Source: a virus | Virus record (IMG/VR): IMGVR_UViG_3300042090_003221 | Location: 51,812-115,811 of that record | DNA: 64,000 bases | Strand: one strand, 5' to 3' | Shown: positions 22,213 through 51,986 of the stretch, one piece after another | How the letters are laid out: every line of letters starts with the position of its first letter | Position numbering within the stretch: position 1 is the first letter of the stretch | Position numbers and translations under genes: made by a program | The notes under the pieces: generated by a model | The model's database searches: none | What the model was told of the DNA's origin: nothing | Seen by the model: the letters and a program-made list of their open reading frames with translations, nothing else

Positions 22213-22288
22213 TGGTGCCGCCGGGGCGGTCTCGAACCCCCGGCCTGCCGCTTACAAGGCGGCTGCTCTACCCCTGAGCTACGGCGGC
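22213..22288 (-). tRNA. tRNA-Thr (anticodon TGT)
   Basis: Cloverleaf on the minus strand: acceptor GCCGCCG/CGGCGGC, D arm GCTC...GAGC, anticodon stem GCCGC/GCGGC with loop CTTGTAA, T loop TTCGAGA, and CCA encoded at the 3' end. The T stem has one G-G mismatch and one extra C before the acceptor strand, so the gene is slightly aberrant. It would read ACA, a codon that is rare in GC-rich hosts. Confidence 0.75.
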
Positions 22289-22292
22289 GAAT

Positions 22293-22367
22293 TGGCTGAA
22301 GAGGCAGGATTCGAACCTGCAGCCACTCGATTAACAGTCGAGAGCTCTACCGTTGAGCTACTCTCCA
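22293..22367 (-). tRNA. tRNA-Asn (anticodon GTT)
   Basis: Minus-strand cloverleaf with acceptor TGGAGAG/CTCTTCA (one G-T pair), D arm GCTC...GAGC, anticodon stem CTCGA/TCGAG with loop CTGTTAA, T arm GCAGG-TTCGAAT-CCTGC, discriminator G and encoded CCA. The U at position 1 is usual for tRNA-Asn. It sits 4 bases from tRNA-Thr and is probably cotranscribed. Confidence 0.88.
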
Positions 22368-33802: not shown

Positions 33803-34150
33803 TCACGCCTCGCCGATCGAGATTTGGCGGCGCCGCTTCGCGCTGACTGGCGCTGGGCGGTCCTCGCCGGCGACGAATTGGCTGCAGGCCTTGGCGTGAT
33901 GCGGGACCGCGCGGCCGGCGATGCCTTGGGCGAGGCTCGTGCGCCTGTGGCAGCGCTTGGGCTCCAGCTCGCCGCCGGCGACCGCGGGCTCATAGCCAAA
34001 ATTGCCGCGCCCCCAATGCGAGCACTCGCGGCACGTATGCGGCGAGCCCGGAATCGCGAACGACGCCTGTCCGGCAAATGTCGCTTTGAGCCACGCGTTG
34101 ACCTCCGGCGCATGGGCGTGGGTCAGGCCCTCCGTGAGGAGCTCCTTCAT
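33803..34150 (-). CDS. Hypothetical Cys/His protein, 115 aa
   Basis: MKELLTEGLTHAHAPEVNAW start overlaps the methyltransferase stop. A likely zinc site is formed by HTCRECSHWGRGNFG and the later KRCHRR and KACSQF Cys. Similar short Cys motifs occur in phage proteins of unknown role. Basic C terminus. Confidence 0.5.
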   Translation of the reverse strand: MKELLTEGLTHAHAPEVNAWLKATFAGQASFAIPGSPHTCRECSHWGRGNFGYEPAVAGGELEPKRCHRRTSLAQGIAGRAVPHHAKACSQFVAGEDRPAPVSAKRRRQISIGEA

Positions 34151-44454: not shown

Positions 44455-44664
44455 ATGGGGACCACGAGCAAGGAAACGCTCCAAGTCGTGCTGCACAAGC
44501 GGACCGAGAAAGCCGTGCTCGTGAGCACGGACGGCAAGGAGCCGTCCGCGGTCTGGCTCCCGCTGGGCCAGATCGAAATCGAGGACGGAGCGGCAGCCGG
44601 TGACGGAGTCTTTTACGACGTCATTGCGCCTGTCTGGCTTCTCGAAAACAGGGGGCTTATCTGA
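44455..44664 (+). CDS. Small hypothetical protein, 69 aa
   Basis: MGTTSKETLQVVLHKRTEKA start. Beta-rich, with KAVLVSTDGKEPSAVWLPLG typical of small OB- or SH3-like folds. Coupled to ninB by one base. Unknown. Confidence 0.55.
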   Translation: MGTTSKETLQVVLHKRTEKAVLVSTDGKEPSAVWLPLGQIEIEDGAAAGDGVFYDVIAPVWLLENRGLI

Positions 44665-45089
44665 TGGCGCGCGCCCTGCTCATCCTCGCAAGCGACACCC
44701 AACGCGCCACCGCGCGCCGTTGGCTCGAACAGGCGCCGCCGGGAAGCCGAATCGAGTTCAAAGGTCCGGTACGCACGCTCCCTCAGAGCGCGAAAATGTG
44801 GGCGATGCTCACCGACGTCGCGACGCAGAAAGAGCACTGCGGCCGCAGGTATGTCGCCGACGACTGGAAGATCCTGTTCATGCACGCGCTTGGGCGCGAG
44901 GCTCGCTTCATCCCAGCCCTCGACGGACACGGCTTCATTCCGATCGGCCAAAGCTCGTCGGACCTTTCGAAGGAAGAGATGAGCGACCTGATCGAATTTA
45001 TGACCGCGTGGGGCGCCGAGAAGGGCGTTGAATGGACGGATCCGGCGCTGCCGCCCGGCCTGGAATGCAACCCGAGGGACGCAGCATGA
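44664..45089 (+). CDS. ninB: NinB-family recombination protein
   Basis: 141 residues. RTLPQSAKMWAMLTDVATQK, DDWKILFMHALG, DGHGFIPIGQSSSDLSKEEM and DLIEFMTAWGAEKGVEW match NinB (Orf/Ninb) of lambdoid phages, which loads or assists annealases on SSB-coated DNA. It sits right after bet, completing a two-component recombination module. Confidence 0.9.
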   Translation: MARALLILASDTQRATARRWLEQAPPGSRIEFKGPVRTLPQSAKMWAMLTDVATQKEHCGRRYVADDWKILFMHALGREARFIPALDGHGFIPIGQSSSDLSKEEMSDLIEFMTAWGAEKGVEWTDPALPPGLECNPRDAA

Positions 45090-45967
45090 ACATGAGAGAG
45101 ACCGTGATGTCGGCTGCGATGAAGGTCGCCTGCGTCGACACCGACGAGGCGCTCTTGCGCTCGATCGCCGTGGCCGAGCTTCAGCGCACCGACGTCAACG
45201 TTTATGCCGCGCTGACGCGCTTCACCAACGAAGTGCGCGGCGCCGGCGGCGTCTTGGCGAAGCTCATCCCCTACGGGGTGACGCGCGACCATGCGCGCGA
45301 ATATCTCAACCGCGTCGCGGCGGACATGCGCGGCGAGGGTGTGGTTCCTGCGAAAGCAGGCGACGGGGTCCGTGAAGGCTATGATAGCCATGGCGTCTTT
45401 GGCCCCGTCGATAATTCGGAAGGTGGAGGGTCCGCCGTCGTCGTGCGAGGCCAGAATACCTATGGCCCTTCGCCTTCCGATTCAGTTCCGGCGCAAGCCG
45501 GCGGGGGAGTCCTGATCGCCGATGAAAGCCACAAGCATTTTGGCTCCCCCGAACAAAGAGAAGACAAAGGGTCCGTTGGCTGTGTGGAAGTCCGGCACGG
45601 GTTTGGCCCCTCGTCTTCTCCCCCCAACAGGAACGGCGCGGTCCACCGCTCGAGTGACAACCGCCAGATGACCTCTGGCCGCGCCGTTCCTGTCCCCAAG
45701 CCTGCGCGCGGTCTGTCCGCGATGAAAGACTACGCTGCGGCGCGAACCTTGTTCGACACCTATCAAACCCGGCAAGGTCCGATTGGCGATCTTGTTTGGT
45801 CCGCGATCCCACGGATCATGTCCGAGAACACGCGTGAGGCCGCGCTGTTGAAGCTGATCTATCAGCACGCGAGGCCGGGCTACGCGAACGCCCGAGTCCG
45901 CGACGTGATCAAAGAAACCGATTTGCAGCGCATGATCAAGAAAGCGGCGGAGATCTCCAATGGTTAA
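45086..45967 (+). CDS. Unknown protein carrying five palindromic elements in frame
   Basis: 293 residues. Residues 1-85 look like an ordinary folded helical domain (LLRSIAVAELQRTDVNVYAA, then VTRDHAREYLNRVAADMRG). Residues ~86-205 are encoded by five tandem hairpin elements (45347-45693) and look low-complexity (Gly/Ser/Pro). The last ~85 residues are again folded (YAAARTLFDTYQTRQGPIGD ... TREAALLKLIYQHARPGYAN). Thus the elements seem to have been inserted into a linker. Not a known family. Confidence 0.6.
   Translation: MNMRETVMSAAMKVACVDTDEALLRSIAVAELQRTDVNVYAALTRFTNEVRGAGGVLAKLIPYGVTRDHAREYLNRVAADMRGEGVVPAKAGDGVREGYDSHGVFGPVDNSEGGGSAVVVRGQNTYGPSPSDSVPAQAGGGVLIADESHKHFGSPEQREDKGSVGCVEVRHGFGPSSSPPNRNGAVHRSSDNRQMTSGRAVPVPKPARGLSAMKDYAAARTLFDTYQTRQGPIGDLVWSAIPRIMSENTREAALLKLIYQHARPGYANARVRDVIKETDLQRMIKKAAEISNG
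45347..45693 (+). repeat. Five tandem structured palindromic elements (E1-E5) with two GNRA hairpins
   Basis: E1 45361-45410, E2 45417-45479, E3 45502-45551, E4 45558-45620, E5 45627-45693. Each is a stem of 8-15 bp with different sequence, closed around a 34-37-base loop that starts TCC and ends TGG, with a GA-rich GCC box inside. E2 is a 14-bp stem using two G-T pairs. E5 has 14 perfect pairs. Small tetraloop hairpins CCTGC-GAAA-GCAGG (45347-45360) and CCGGC-GCAA-GCCGG (45488-45501) precede E1 and E3, so a GNRA-plus-two-hairpin unit is duplicated every 141 bases. Confidence 0.85.
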
Positions 45968-47198
45968 GCGCGCAGCAAAGAATTCTAGCGACGGGTCCGT
46001 GCTTATGCTGGCTTCACGTAAGCCTAGGATGCTGTTGGCCCGCTCGCTGGAAACCAAAACCGATAGCGGCGGGTCCGTTTCGAGAGCGATGGCCGTGAAA
46101 CCCATGGCCTGTCCACTATCGGCTCCCAAATCCAAGAAAACCGCCGACAGCGGGTCCGTAGGTGGCATGCCTCCCGCGAAGGATATGGCCCGCTCGTCGG
46201 CGGCTCCAAAATCCAAGAAAAGCGTCAGCGGCGGGTCCGGAATGTGTTTGAAGGCCAATGATCGTCTGGCCCGTCCGCTGACGCCTCCCGAACTCGACGT
46301 GATATGCACTCAAATCCAAGAGGCCCAAGTAGACCGGAAATACTCGATCCAGACCCAGGCCGGGATTATGCAGCGCCTATCCGCCCTCGCCGTCAGGGCG
46401 TGCGATCTCTCTCACGACGCCAACGAGGCGCAGCGCAAAGCCGCCTGGACGCGAGCGGAGCGCATTGTGAGCCGTGGGCTCAAGGGCGAAGTGCAAGATG
46501 ACGACGATGTCGAAATTGGCGCGACGCTCACCAAGTACTTCAAGATGGCGGCCGCCTCACTGAAGCCGGTCGCCGAATTCCGCAAAGAGATTGAACGGTT
46601 CATGAAGGCGAAGGCGGCACAGCTCCCCGGCTTCGCCATGACCGAGCGTGTCCCCAGCTTCAAGCCACTCGGATTGGCCGTCATCGTTGGCGAAGCCGGG
46701 AACCTCTCGAACTACGCGACCGAGCGCAAGCTCTGGCGGCGCCTTGGCTTCGGCATGGCGCCCGGCCACGAGGAGCATGCCTATTCGACGTGGAGGATGA
46801 TCAAGGGGTTGACAAGCGAGGATTGGACGGCCGCTGGCTACTCGCCAAAGCGCCTCGGCCAGATCTACGGCGTCGTCACGGTCCCGCTCGTCATGCACAA
46901 GGCCAAGAGCAAATATGGCGAGGTCTACGCCAAGCGCCGAGCGCGAACGCTGGAAACGCATCCGGAATGGTATCTCGACAAGAACGGCAAGCCGAAATTC
47001 GACAAGGACGGCAACCCGCGCAGCGCTCACGCGAGCATGGATGCGGCGCGCATCATGACGAAGGAATTGATTTCCGACCTGTGGTCGGAATGGAGGGGGT
47101 CCGTTTATCAGCTGGCGGAAACGCCCGCTTACCTTGTGGCCCCCTCCAAATCCATCCCCGCTGAAACGCGCCGCGTCGAAGAGGAGGAGCTGGTCTGA
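45960..47198 (+). CDS. Phage protein with IS110-like segment and five palindromic elements
   Basis: 412 residues. The first ~105 residues are encoded by four palindromic elements and are Ser/Gly/Lys/Pro-rich (repeats such as GSVGGMPPAKDMARS). Residues 110-230 are helical. Then comes SFKPLGLAVIVGEAGNLSNY followed by ERKLWRRLGF, which resembles the helix-hairpin-helix Transposase_20 region of IS110 transposases; the DEDD catalytic part is not present. A fifth element lies near the C terminus. Role unknown; a DNA-binding function is plausible. Confidence 0.55.
   Translation: MVKRAAKNSSDGSVLMLASRKPRMLLARSLETKTDSGGSVSRAMAVKPMACPLSAPKSKKTADSGSVGGMPPAKDMARSSAAPKSKKSVSGGSGMCLKANDRLARPLTPPELDVICTQIQEAQVDRKYSIQTQAGIMQRLSALAVRACDLSHDANEAQRKAAWTRAERIVSRGLKGEVQDDDDVEIGATLTKYFKMAAASLKPVAEFRKEIERFMKAKAAQLPGFAMTERVPSFKPLGLAVIVGEAGNLSNYATERKLWRRLGFGMAPGHEEHAYSTWRMIKGLTSEDWTAAGYSPKRLGQIYGVVTVPLVMHKAKSKYGEVYAKRRARTLETHPEWYLDKNGKPKFDKDGNPRSAHASMDAARIMTKELISDLWSEWRGSVYQLAETPAYLVAPSKSIPAETRRVEEEELV
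45985..46284 (+). repeat. Four tandem structured palindromic elements (E6-E9)
   Basis: E6 45985-46050, E7 46060-46122, E8 46141-46203, E9 46222-46284. Stems again differ in sequence but pair fully: E8 has 14 bp plus one bulge, E9 14 bp plus one bulge at the equivalent place, E6 10 bp with a bulge, E7 13 bp with G-T pairs. Loops are 34 bases (43 in E6), starting TCCG and ending TGG. E7 and E8 are followed by nearly identical spacers (GGCTCCCAAATCCAAGAAAA and GGCTCCAAAATCCAAGAAAA). Confidence 0.87.
47091..47148 (+). repeat. Isolated palindromic element E10
   Basis: TGGAGGGGG (47091-47099) pairs with CCCCCTCCA (47140-47148) around a 40-base loop that begins TCCG and ends GTGG. It lies near the 3' end of the same gene as E6-E9 but about 800 bases away, and is followed by AAATCCA, the same box as after E7 and E8. 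This shows the element can occur singly. Confidence 0.8.
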
Positions 47199-47491
47199 TG
47201 ACCGCCCTCACGAGAGTCGTCTGGCGCGAGTGGTTCAACGCGCCGGCCGTCGCCCGAATGACCGAGATGCGCACGCTTCCGCGCGAGGAAGTCGAGCTGA
47301 ACCTCGCGCTCATCCGCGACGGCGCCGATCTCGCCGAGGCTATCGCGGAGGATGCGACGCAGGACGGGTCGGAGCTTTTCCGCTCCGAGACGGAGATCGT
47401 CATTCTCGAGCCGGCTGAATTCGCCGGCACGTACCGGGTCTGCGTCGACTACGAGCCAACCTATACGGCTTTTGCGGCGGATCTGGACTGA
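47198..47491 (+). CDS. Hypothetical protein, 97 aa
   Basis: ATG 47198 overlaps the previous stop. Helical first half and a beta-like acidic end (ETEIVILEPAEFAGTYRVCV). No family recognised. Coupled to the HNH gene that follows. Confidence 0.52.
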   Translation: MTALTRVVWREWFNAPAVARMTEMRTLPREEVELNLALIRDGADLAEAIAEDATQDGSELFRSETEIVILEPAEFAGTYRVCVDYEPTYTAFAADLD

Positions 47492-47889
47492 TGGCTCGCC
47501 AAGAATTCCGTCAGTCGGTCAAGATCGAGATCCGGTTGCGGGCGACGCGCGACAACGTCGTCTACTGCGAGATATGCGGACTCCCGGCGAAGAAGTGGCA
47601 TATCGACCATATCAAAGCGACCGCGCTCGAGGTCGACAAGAGCAAGCCACTGACTGCCGCTGACGGGCAACTCCTTTGCGCCGGCTCGCGCTTCAGTTGC
47701 CACGGGATCAAGACCGCCGAAGAAGACGTCCCGGCCATCGCGGAAGCAAAGCGCCGTCAGGCGCTACACCTGGGCGTCGAGCCGAAGACACAGAACCCGA
47801 TCAAACAGCGCCCCAAGGCGGAGAAGACGCCGCCGCGCCCGGCCGCTGCAGGCATGAGTGAAATCGCCAGAAGGTTTGGACTGCAATGA
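47491..47889 (+). CDS. HNH endonuclease-like protein
   Basis: 132 residues. VVYCEICGLPAKKWHIDHIK provides CxxC and the His-rich core, ADGQLLC and SRFSCHGIKT the second Cys pair; spacing fits an HNH/Rap-like fold in phage recombination regions. The C-terminal tail is Lys/Pro-rich. Possibly a junction or branch nuclease partner of bet/ninB. Confidence 0.72.
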   Translation: MARQEFRQSVKIEIRLRATRDNVVYCEICGLPAKKWHIDHIKATALEVDKSKPLTAADGQLLCAGSRFSCHGIKTAEEDVPAIAEAKRRQALHLGVEPKTQNPIKQRPKAEKTPPRPAAAGMSEIARRFGLQ

Positions 47890-50962: not shown

Positions 50963-51986
50963 AGACCTATGTCAGGTCTACGCCGAGCGGTTCGATGCTT
51001 GGCGCGCCATGGGTGACCGACCGCGCTATCTCTACGACGGAACCGTCGGGAGCCTATGCGACGCATTCGAGCGGCACGACGAGAGCCCGATGCGAGACGT
51101 CAAGGCGTCGACCGCGGGCTCTTACAGCGATTCTCTGAAGGTGATCCGCGGGACCGTCGCGGCGCGCGCCGTGCGCGCCGTCACGCCAATCGACGTCAAA
51201 ACATGGTTCCGGAAGTGGAAGGAACCGAAGGAGCCGGGCGGCCCGGAGCGGACCAAGCGCGCGCACGACGCAATTTCGATGCTGCGCCAGATCCTCAACT
51301 TCGGTCGTTCGCTCGGCTATGCCGAATGCGGCGAACTGTCCGAAGGCTTGTCGTCAATGCGCTTCGAACGCTCCGGCCGGCGGACAACGGCAATGACGGT
51401 CGATCACGCCCGGACGTTCATTGCCGCCGCCTTGGCGCGCGGGGACAGCCGCGGTCTTTACATGGCGATCGGCGTTGCGGCGCAATTTGAAACGATCTTG
51501 CGCCAGATAGACGTCATCGGAGAATGGGTCGACGAAGGCGCCCACGAGGTCTGGCGCGGATCTTTTACCTGGGAAGCCATCCCGGGCGGCATTCTGCGCC
51601 TGAAGACCAGCAAGACCGGCTCGCCGATCTCGCACAACCTGACCAAGCTCGAATTGCTTTGGCCGCTTATGCAGGCGGTCCCGCAAGCCGAACGTTTTGG
51701 CGCTGTCGTGAAAGGGGAGGGCGGGCTCCCAATTCGGACCCGCTCTTATCGGAAGTGGTTCGCCGAGATCCGCGATGCCGCTGGCCTGCCGAAAGACCTT
51801 TGGGCGATGGACGCGCGCGCCGGCGCGGTGACCGAAGCGCTTGACATGGGCGCCGACCTGACCGACGTCAGCCGGACCGCGACGCACTCGACCGTGACCA
51901 TGACGCGCCGCTACGACCGCGTCGCCGAGGAGTCGGCGGCGCGTGTAGCTGAGGTCCGCAAGCAGGGCCGGAGCCGCAAGCCATGA
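50811..51986 (+). CDS. int: Tyrosine-family site-specific integrase
   Basis: 391 residues. An N-terminal SAM-like core-binding domain (DVKASTAGSYSDSLKVIRGT) precedes the catalytic domain: Arg in FETILRQIDVIGEW, a DARAGAVTEALDMG box where D-x-R replaces the usual H-x-x-R, ATHSTVTMTRRYDR with His and the nucleophile Tyr368. It integrates the phage genome into a host attachment site. A tRNA 3'-end sequence 94 bases downstream of the stop (52080) is the likely att core. Confidence 0.92.
   Translation: MRSQAPGLKRRRRKDGEALYWSAAALSPKDAKRYPDAWIRLPQNATPAEIEDLCQVYAERFDAWRAMGDRPRYLYDGTVGSLCDAFERHDESPMRDVKASTAGSYSDSLKVIRGTVAARAVRAVTPIDVKTWFRKWKEPKEPGGPERTKRAHDAISMLRQILNFGRSLGYAECGELSEGLSSMRFERSGRRTTAMTVDHARTFIAAALARGDSRGLYMAIGVAAQFETILRQIDVIGEWVDEGAHEVWRGSFTWEAIPGGILRLKTSKTGSPISHNLTKLELLWPLMQAVPQAERFGAVVKGEGGLPIRTRSYRKWFAEIRDAAGLPKDLWAMDARAGAVTEALDMGADLTDVSRTATHSTVTMTRRYDRVAEESAARVAEVRKQGRSRKP

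Follow-up and report, generated by a model that had tools for sequence, protein, structure and literature searches.

Introduction

The closest described relatives of the locus reported here are the TIGR-Tas systems. The locus consists of ten hairpin elements (E1–E10) inside two adjacent genes of a viral DNA stretch of 64,000 nucleotides (nt), hereafter called the window, which spans positions 51812–115811 of the IMG/VR record IMGVR_UViG_3300042090_003221. According to the main text of the paper that first described TIGR-Tas (Faure et al., 2025; PMC12045711), TIGR arrays come as dual-repeat arrays and, in two Tas clades, as stem-loop arrays. A TIGR unit reads box C, spacer A, box D and, further on, box C, spacer B, box D; in stem-loop arrays, the two spacers are 8–12 nt long and are accompanied by box C and box D, and variable palindromes replace the edge repeats. 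Arrays lie upstream and/or downstream of tas. TasA dimers bind the tigRNA via its two C/D box pairs, and the spacers pair with opposite, adjoining DNA strands (PMC12045711). The origin of TIGR arrays and the renewal of their spacers are treated as an open question in the main text of that paper (PMC12045711).

With the stem-loop arrays of TasA (Faure et al., 2025), as presented in that main text, the locus shares a solo Nop-domain protein, variable palindromes where edge repeats would stand, a variably sized linker instead of the loop repeat, and about ten units in sub-arrays. In contrast to them, its units are set in frame within tas and a partner gene, the partner family is undescribed in the main text of the discovery paper, and conserved stems go together with an in-place exchange of spacers. 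Neither the arrangement nor the evolutionary behavior is reported in that main text (PMC12045711).

The dual-repeat TIGR arrays (with TasR, TasH or TasA) have in common with the present locus paired 9-nt spacers, CCA and UG boxes and a homologous effector, but here there are no constant edge or loop repeats and no nuclease domain. IS110-family transposases with a bridge RNA (IS621) possess a Nop-like RNA-binding C-terminal domain and a box C/D-like guide RNA; by contrast, the locus described here has neither a DEDD/RuvC domain nor transposon ends, and ten guides stand against one bridge RNA. The box C/D small nucleolar ribonucleoprotein (Nop5/Nop56/58) shares the Nop fold and has a hairpin guide in which boxes C and D flank the two spacers, whereas here there is no kink-turn/L7Ae or fibrillarin, and the expected targets are DNA rather than rRNA. 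We propose that the ten elements are very probably the tigRNA array of a phage TIGR-TasA system, set in frame into tas and its partner gene, with an mRNA that would be both message and guide precursor.

Results

Ten hairpins follow the TIGR unit plan

The ten elements lie at 45361–47148 on the + strand of the window. They had been predicted in a preliminary description of this DNA, which also gave correctly their stems of 8–15 bp and their loops of 34–43 nt that start with TCC and end with TGG. The two genes that carry them and the units themselves are as follows.

45086–45967, + strand: ORF2, the partner gene; 293 amino acids; N-terminal domain, linker encoded by E1–E5, C-terminal domain
45960–47198, + strand: tas (TasA, ORF3); 412 amino acids; carries E6–E10; GGAG 7 nt before the ATG
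45361–45410, + strand: E1, stem CGACGGGG/CCCCGTCG; spacer A TGAAGGCTA, spacer B TGGCGTCTT; in ORF2
45416–45480, + strand: E2, 15-bp stem; spacers CCGTCGTCG / GAATACCTA; in ORF2
45502–45551, + strand: E3, spacers GATCGCCGA / CAAGCATTT; in ORF2
45558–45620, + strand: E4, spacers TTGGCTGTG / GCACGGGTT; in ORF2
45627–45693, + strand: E5, 15-bp perfect stem; spacers CCGCTCGAG / GATGACCTC; in ORF2
45983–46052, + strand: E6, spacers TGCTTATGC / GGATGCTGT (9 or 10 nt); in the N-terminal coding part of tas
46061–46121, + strand: E7, spacers TTTCGAGAG / TGAAACCCA; second box D CG; in tas
46142–46202, + strand: E8, spacers TAGGTGGCA / CGAAGGATA; within the 81-nt tandem series E7–E9; in tas
46223–46283, + strand: E9, spacers GAATGTGTT / ATGATCGTC; in tas
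47091–47148, + strand: E10, spacers TTTATCAGC / CTTACCTTG; at the 3' end of the tas coding sequence

Pairing of the stems is specific to each copy, again in agreement with the preliminary description. When the outer arms were scored, with the three constant innermost pairs left out, cognate arms had a mean of 14.7 and non-cognate arms a mean of 4.5, and none of 20,000 re-pairings reached the observed sum. Nine of the ten elements beat at least 198 of 200 dinucleotide shuffles in folding (z –3.4 to –5.5); the folding of E3 is weaker (z –1.65, with 12 of 200 shuffles equally good).

From box to box, a unit is made up of a private stem, CC(G/A/T), nine variable nt, TG, a linker, nine variable nt, TGG and the second arm, and all ten elements fit the more general plan of stem, CCN, 9 nt, YG, loop, CCN, 9 nt, YG, stem. 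The linker between the spacers varies in size from 9 to 18 nt and ends in CC(A/G). Spacer lengths of 9 + 9 nt were found in all ten elements, and box deviations are limited to one each in E6 and E7: the second box D of E7 reads CG instead of TG, and E6 is the sole unit with an unclear second box C (CTA or CCT), hence a spacer B of either 9 or 10 nt. What had been described as a constant loop turned out to be two variable 9-nt guide segments between short constant boxes. The GA-N-RGCC motif noted in its middle is real, lying exactly 9 nt from either end in 10 of 10 units, but, rather than a box of its own, it is the loop segment that separates the second box D from the second box C (CCA/CCG). 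Units E7–E9 follow one another with an 81-nt period and have linkers that are 90% identical among them; their spacers are not shared.

A strict unit descriptor (TCC, 9 nt, TG, CC, 9 nt, TGG, stem) found eight matches on the + strand of the window and none on the – strand, against a mean of 0.02 and a maximum of one in 100 dinucleotide shuffles. No further copies were found in the remainder of the 115,811-bp record. An Rfam search of the window gave no family above the gathering score for the elements and matched only two tRNAs, and blastn of the array against phages and plasmids returned short chance matches only. A pattern scan of viral contigs with CGGGTCCG..TGGCCCG yielded at least 120 matches, dominated by chance and without clusters among the matches listed. 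Unit-like matches in the tas core (46816–46887) and at 33867 were likewise put down to chance. Among other kinds of element, attC sites, iterons or a lambda-type origin in an O gene, small ribozymes and translational bypass elements were weighed and rejected. We also noted an 18-nt inverted repeat in the tas core (46621–46705, 89% complementary, 49-nt loop), in which the box/spacer plan is absent.

The array adjoins a Nop-domain gene of the Tas family

The product of ORF3 matched the NCBIfam model TIGR_Tas across the whole domain (3.8e-12), and a profile of the tas family matched the solved structures of TasR (9mty, 2.9e-15) and TasH (21kl, 5.7e-5). An AlphaFold2 model of the 299-residue tas core, built from a 39-sequence alignment of the window protein and its homologs, predicted an all-helical Nop domain with pLDDT 89.4 and pTM 0.83. 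The best fold match of this model in the PDB was the complex of TasH with pre-tigRNA and double-stranded DNA, with the IS110-family recombinase IS621 and archaeal Nop5 ranking next. Along the protein, a tail encoded by E6–E9 precedes the Nop domain (approximately residues 156–379), and a short tail encoded by E10, modeled with low confidence, follows it. Family searches and the AlphaFold2 model revealed in ORF3 no nuclease family match, no RuvC or HNH fused to Nop, and no N-terminal DEDD/RuvC-like catalytic domain of the IS110-family type. Since it has no nuclease domain, we assign the protein to TasA. A stand-alone HNH endonuclease gene is present two genes downstream of tas (window 47491–47889); in TasH, the HNH is fused to Nop.

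Judged by the box/spacer plan and by the Nop-domain tas gene beside it, the ten elements are a predicted TIGR stem-loop guide array adjoining its Nop-domain effector. The earlier view that they belong to no named family was therefore wrong; the view of them as a selected RNA structure within two neighboring genes of a phage was borne out.

Units and tas are linked across 55 loci

First protein searches with the tas core or the N-terminal part of ORF2 alone found no relatives; a profile that incorporated a Rhizobium phage homolog brought out the tas family. The homologs came from that Rhizobium phage (L131), IMG/VR (L132 and L146–L194), Rhizobium esperanzae (L133), other Rhizobiaceae genomes (L137–L142) and a genome of the same order (L143). 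After removal of duplicates, there were 55 Tas loci, with 297 strict units near tas on the tas strand; the opposite strand, counted over the entire loci, has 8. At least three units are present in 45 of the 55 loci. Some loci were first parsed with 10-nt spacers. In these, position ten is a pyrimidine (C or T) preceding G, and the rule of a nine-base spacer plus a YG box therefore applies there too. The tas matches in L160, L174, L190 and L194 contain one or two in-frame stops and are possibly decayed or frameshifted.

The array is embedded in an overlapping operon

Upstream of ORF2, the same overlapping operon contains one more gene.

44664–45089, + strand: NinB recombination mediator gene

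Along the operon (NinB, ORF2, tas and the next gene), the genes overlap by ATGA at 45086, where the ORF2 start overlaps the NinB stop, by ATGGTTAA at 45960, where the ORF2 stop overlaps the tas start, and by TGATG at 47196. Because stop and start codons overlap at each junction, no intergenic space is left. E1–E5 are in the middle of ORF2, and E6–E9 are between the tas start and the Nop domain. The codons of the last Nop-domain motif (EWR) already form the start of E10, in-frame coding sequence continues beyond this unit, and L146 and the L152 group have a unit at the corresponding position. The N- and C-parts of ORF2 have phage codon usage and one common frame.

ORF2 is a real, conserved, array-bearing partner family. 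Its homolog in L143 (2e-15) has two units in the corresponding linker and the same overlap with tas; the homolog in L146 is full length with four units in the linker, and those of the L152 group also carry units in the corresponding linker. An iterated profile detected ORF2 in 34 of the 55 Tas loci, with units in 30 of these 34, always before the C-terminal domain. Units within tas itself were found downstream of a Shine-Dalgarno-led start in L131, L132 and L133, and in C-terminal tails of up to ~150 residues in L169, L175, L179 and L185.

Rhizobium-type loci have another conserved partner gene, ~195 amino acids long and flanked by units (L131 4600–5199, L132 5138–5713, L133 2873–3469). The copies are 46–79% identical to that of L131, and no relationship to ORF2 was detectable.

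Spacers are exchanged in place

Spacers were compared in a four-locus alignment, in hand-matched pairs and between the window and L146. The four loci L152, L153, L154 and L157, whose tas cores are 93–96% identical, share six orthologous units. In these, the boxes are kept and the stems are 97% identical, against a spacer identity of 32%, which is about random. L152 and L157 are two contigs of a single IMG isolate, 2894228515; their tas cores are 95% identical, and the spacers differ in six of six shared units.

Between the window and L146, stem conservation extends to E1–E4 and E10 and is lowest in E4; compensatory changes are seen in E1, where a C-G pair became T-A, and in E10. The E3 stem is identical in the two loci and its spacers are different; overall, 1–4 of the 9 bases agree between the spacers of the window and L146. 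In hand-matched related loci, some units keep both spacers, and others with equally similar stems have new ones. Since the spacers of some orthologous units are identical (L138/L141, L140/L142), the change appears to be mostly all-or-nothing. Collectively, spacers are exchanged in place, with stems and boxes kept. This turnover fits an active process of renewal as well as it fits recombination with other phages. We also noted stems that recur with different spacers, as if they were standard guide slots, in L131, L133 and L139 (stem TTGCTTGT..) and in L138/L141 (GCAGATGGG).

Alternative explanations

Several observations weigh against a translated, DNA-directed TIGR array. ORF3 missed the 100-bit cut-off of NF052498 TIGR_Tas_endo (46.6 bits at full length and 48.1 for the core; close relatives reached 65–97); as that model describes the endonuclease group, ORF3 is not filed as that equivalog. 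Codon usage within the units is near neutral, hence the case for translation through them depends on the frame, on the spacing and on the domains at either side. The spacing of units within one coding sequence speaks for translation, being a multiple of three in 55 of 79 cases (p = 6e-11), compared with 14 of 36 in the intergenic Rhizobiaceae arrays, but the test is partly circular because coding sequences were defined by their open frame. Unit pairs without assignment to a single coding sequence were also enriched (36 of 60), which probably stems from other genes there that were not assigned. Over all loci, the tas frame downstream of the Nop core is not longer than other frames, so the units in C-terminal positions are secure only in individual loci. 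Lastly, self-targets in the record numbered 53 and 58, fewer than the ~75 for mismatched-spacer controls, and 1.56 Mb of collected loci had 67 targets versus 67 and 74 in controls. Exact E9 and E10 targets in viral contigs amounted to two and four matches, respectively, in contigs of 34–56% GC (window 65%), and we took these matches to be chance rather than DNA targets.

We consider it unlikely that the locus is a TIGR stem-loop array that is essentially non-coding, with frames open by chance in GC-rich DNA and with tas and ORF2 starting or ending outside the array. The near-neutral codon usage fits such an array; moreover, 68% of unit-frames outside genes are open anyway, and in the Rhizobiaceae relatives most units are intergenic. 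However, the multiple-of-three spacing seen in coding sequences is absent from intergenic arrays, and at several loci the N- and C-terminal domains of ORF2 flank the units in one frame. The Shine-Dalgarno-led tas starts upstream of units in three loci, and the overlapping stop and start codons that leave no intergenic space, also argue for translation.

Another possibility is that the spacers vary since the loop is unconstrained, and that the units are decaying or purely structural hairpins. The target searches, which found none, and a spacer composition that looks random are consistent with this explanation. It is nevertheless very unlikely, because exactly 9 nt separate the boxes in hundreds of units, with the boxes kept at both ends, and because all four bases vary at nearly every spacer site in loci whose stems and tas are 93–97% identical. 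Spacers thus change far faster than the rest of the locus; some orthologous units of L138/L141 and L140/L142 have kept theirs exactly.

Rickettsia palindromic elements (RPE) are palindromes that lie in frame inside genes. In-frame palindromes are what the present elements have in common with them; the elements here are not mobile and not dispersed, and their sequence plan is unrelated, so the preliminary description was right to keep the likeness distant. The possibility that it raised, of a mobile element with copies in unrelated genes, did not hold, as the units are always linked to tas and on the tas strand (297 versus 8 across the 55 loci). Mobile elements of the RPE kind, inserted into genes and tolerated in disordered protein regions, would match units that are palindromic, in frame and in such regions. 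We regard this origin as extremely improbable: the record has no copies outside the tas locus, the units always adjoin tas, the distance between boxes is exactly 9 nt, and the variable part consists of the two loop spacers, the reverse of a mobile repeat with a constant body. There is next to no chance that selection acted at the protein level on repetitive disordered tails, with palindromes as a by-product of codon choice, for although unit peptides (GP-NSEG, GPLPSDSVP and similar) recur between the window and L146, units stand in differing frames within ORF2, the same boxes and stems occur in units outside genes, which contradicts this explanation, arms pair with their own partner only, and stems show compensatory changes.

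Proposed mechanism and significance

In the scheme that we infer for transcription, processing, DNA binding and feedback in a phage TIGR-TasA system with an in-frame array, an alphaproteobacterial phage would carry ten tigRNA units, each of them transcribed and kept in hairpin form by its own stem. A TasA dimer would bind a unit through its two box C/box D pairs, and the two 9-nt spacers would each pair with a different strand of a single DNA target of ~18 bp. Because TasA has no nuclease, it would most likely block or bend its target, which might be a host gene or a competing mobile element. ORF2 takes its linker from E1–E5, and TasA its N-terminal tail from E6–E9 and its C-terminal one from E10; such tails encoded by units, being disordered, would be tolerated. 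The operon mRNA would also be the guide precursor, and release of a guide would remove the unit from the ORF2/TasA message. Since message and precursor would be one RNA, cutting out units would consume the tas message, a built-in feedback in which more Tas would lead to more processing and to less message, and the system would limit itself.

The wider proposal has, in our estimate, an even chance of being right: a large group of phages may have translated guide arrays, with tigRNA hairpins as coding sequence for the tails of the effector and for a dedicated partner protein, in which guide-making destroys the effector message, together with a renewal process that swaps both spacers in place, leaves the stem intact and is distinct from CRISPR adaptation. 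Natural experiments on spacer replacement are provided by closely related loci in which the stems are identical and the spacers differ completely, and IMG isolate 2894228515 (L152/L157) would be a cultivable starting point. Arrays inside genes also offer a defined test of whether effector translation and guide processing compete for one RNA. The ORF2 family adds a new array-bearing partner protein, and the strict unit descriptor combined with tas linkage is a simple route to such systems in phages.

Surroundings of the array in the record

The record (1–115811, of which the window is 51812–115811) has a long run of – strand genes in its left half and, after an integrase, a + strand module at its right end that resembles the tail module of gene transfer agents. 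These look like two phage modules, possibly two adjacent prophages or a joined assembly. Phage genes for tRNA-Asn and tRNA-Thr are located at 22213–22367 of the window, on the – strand.
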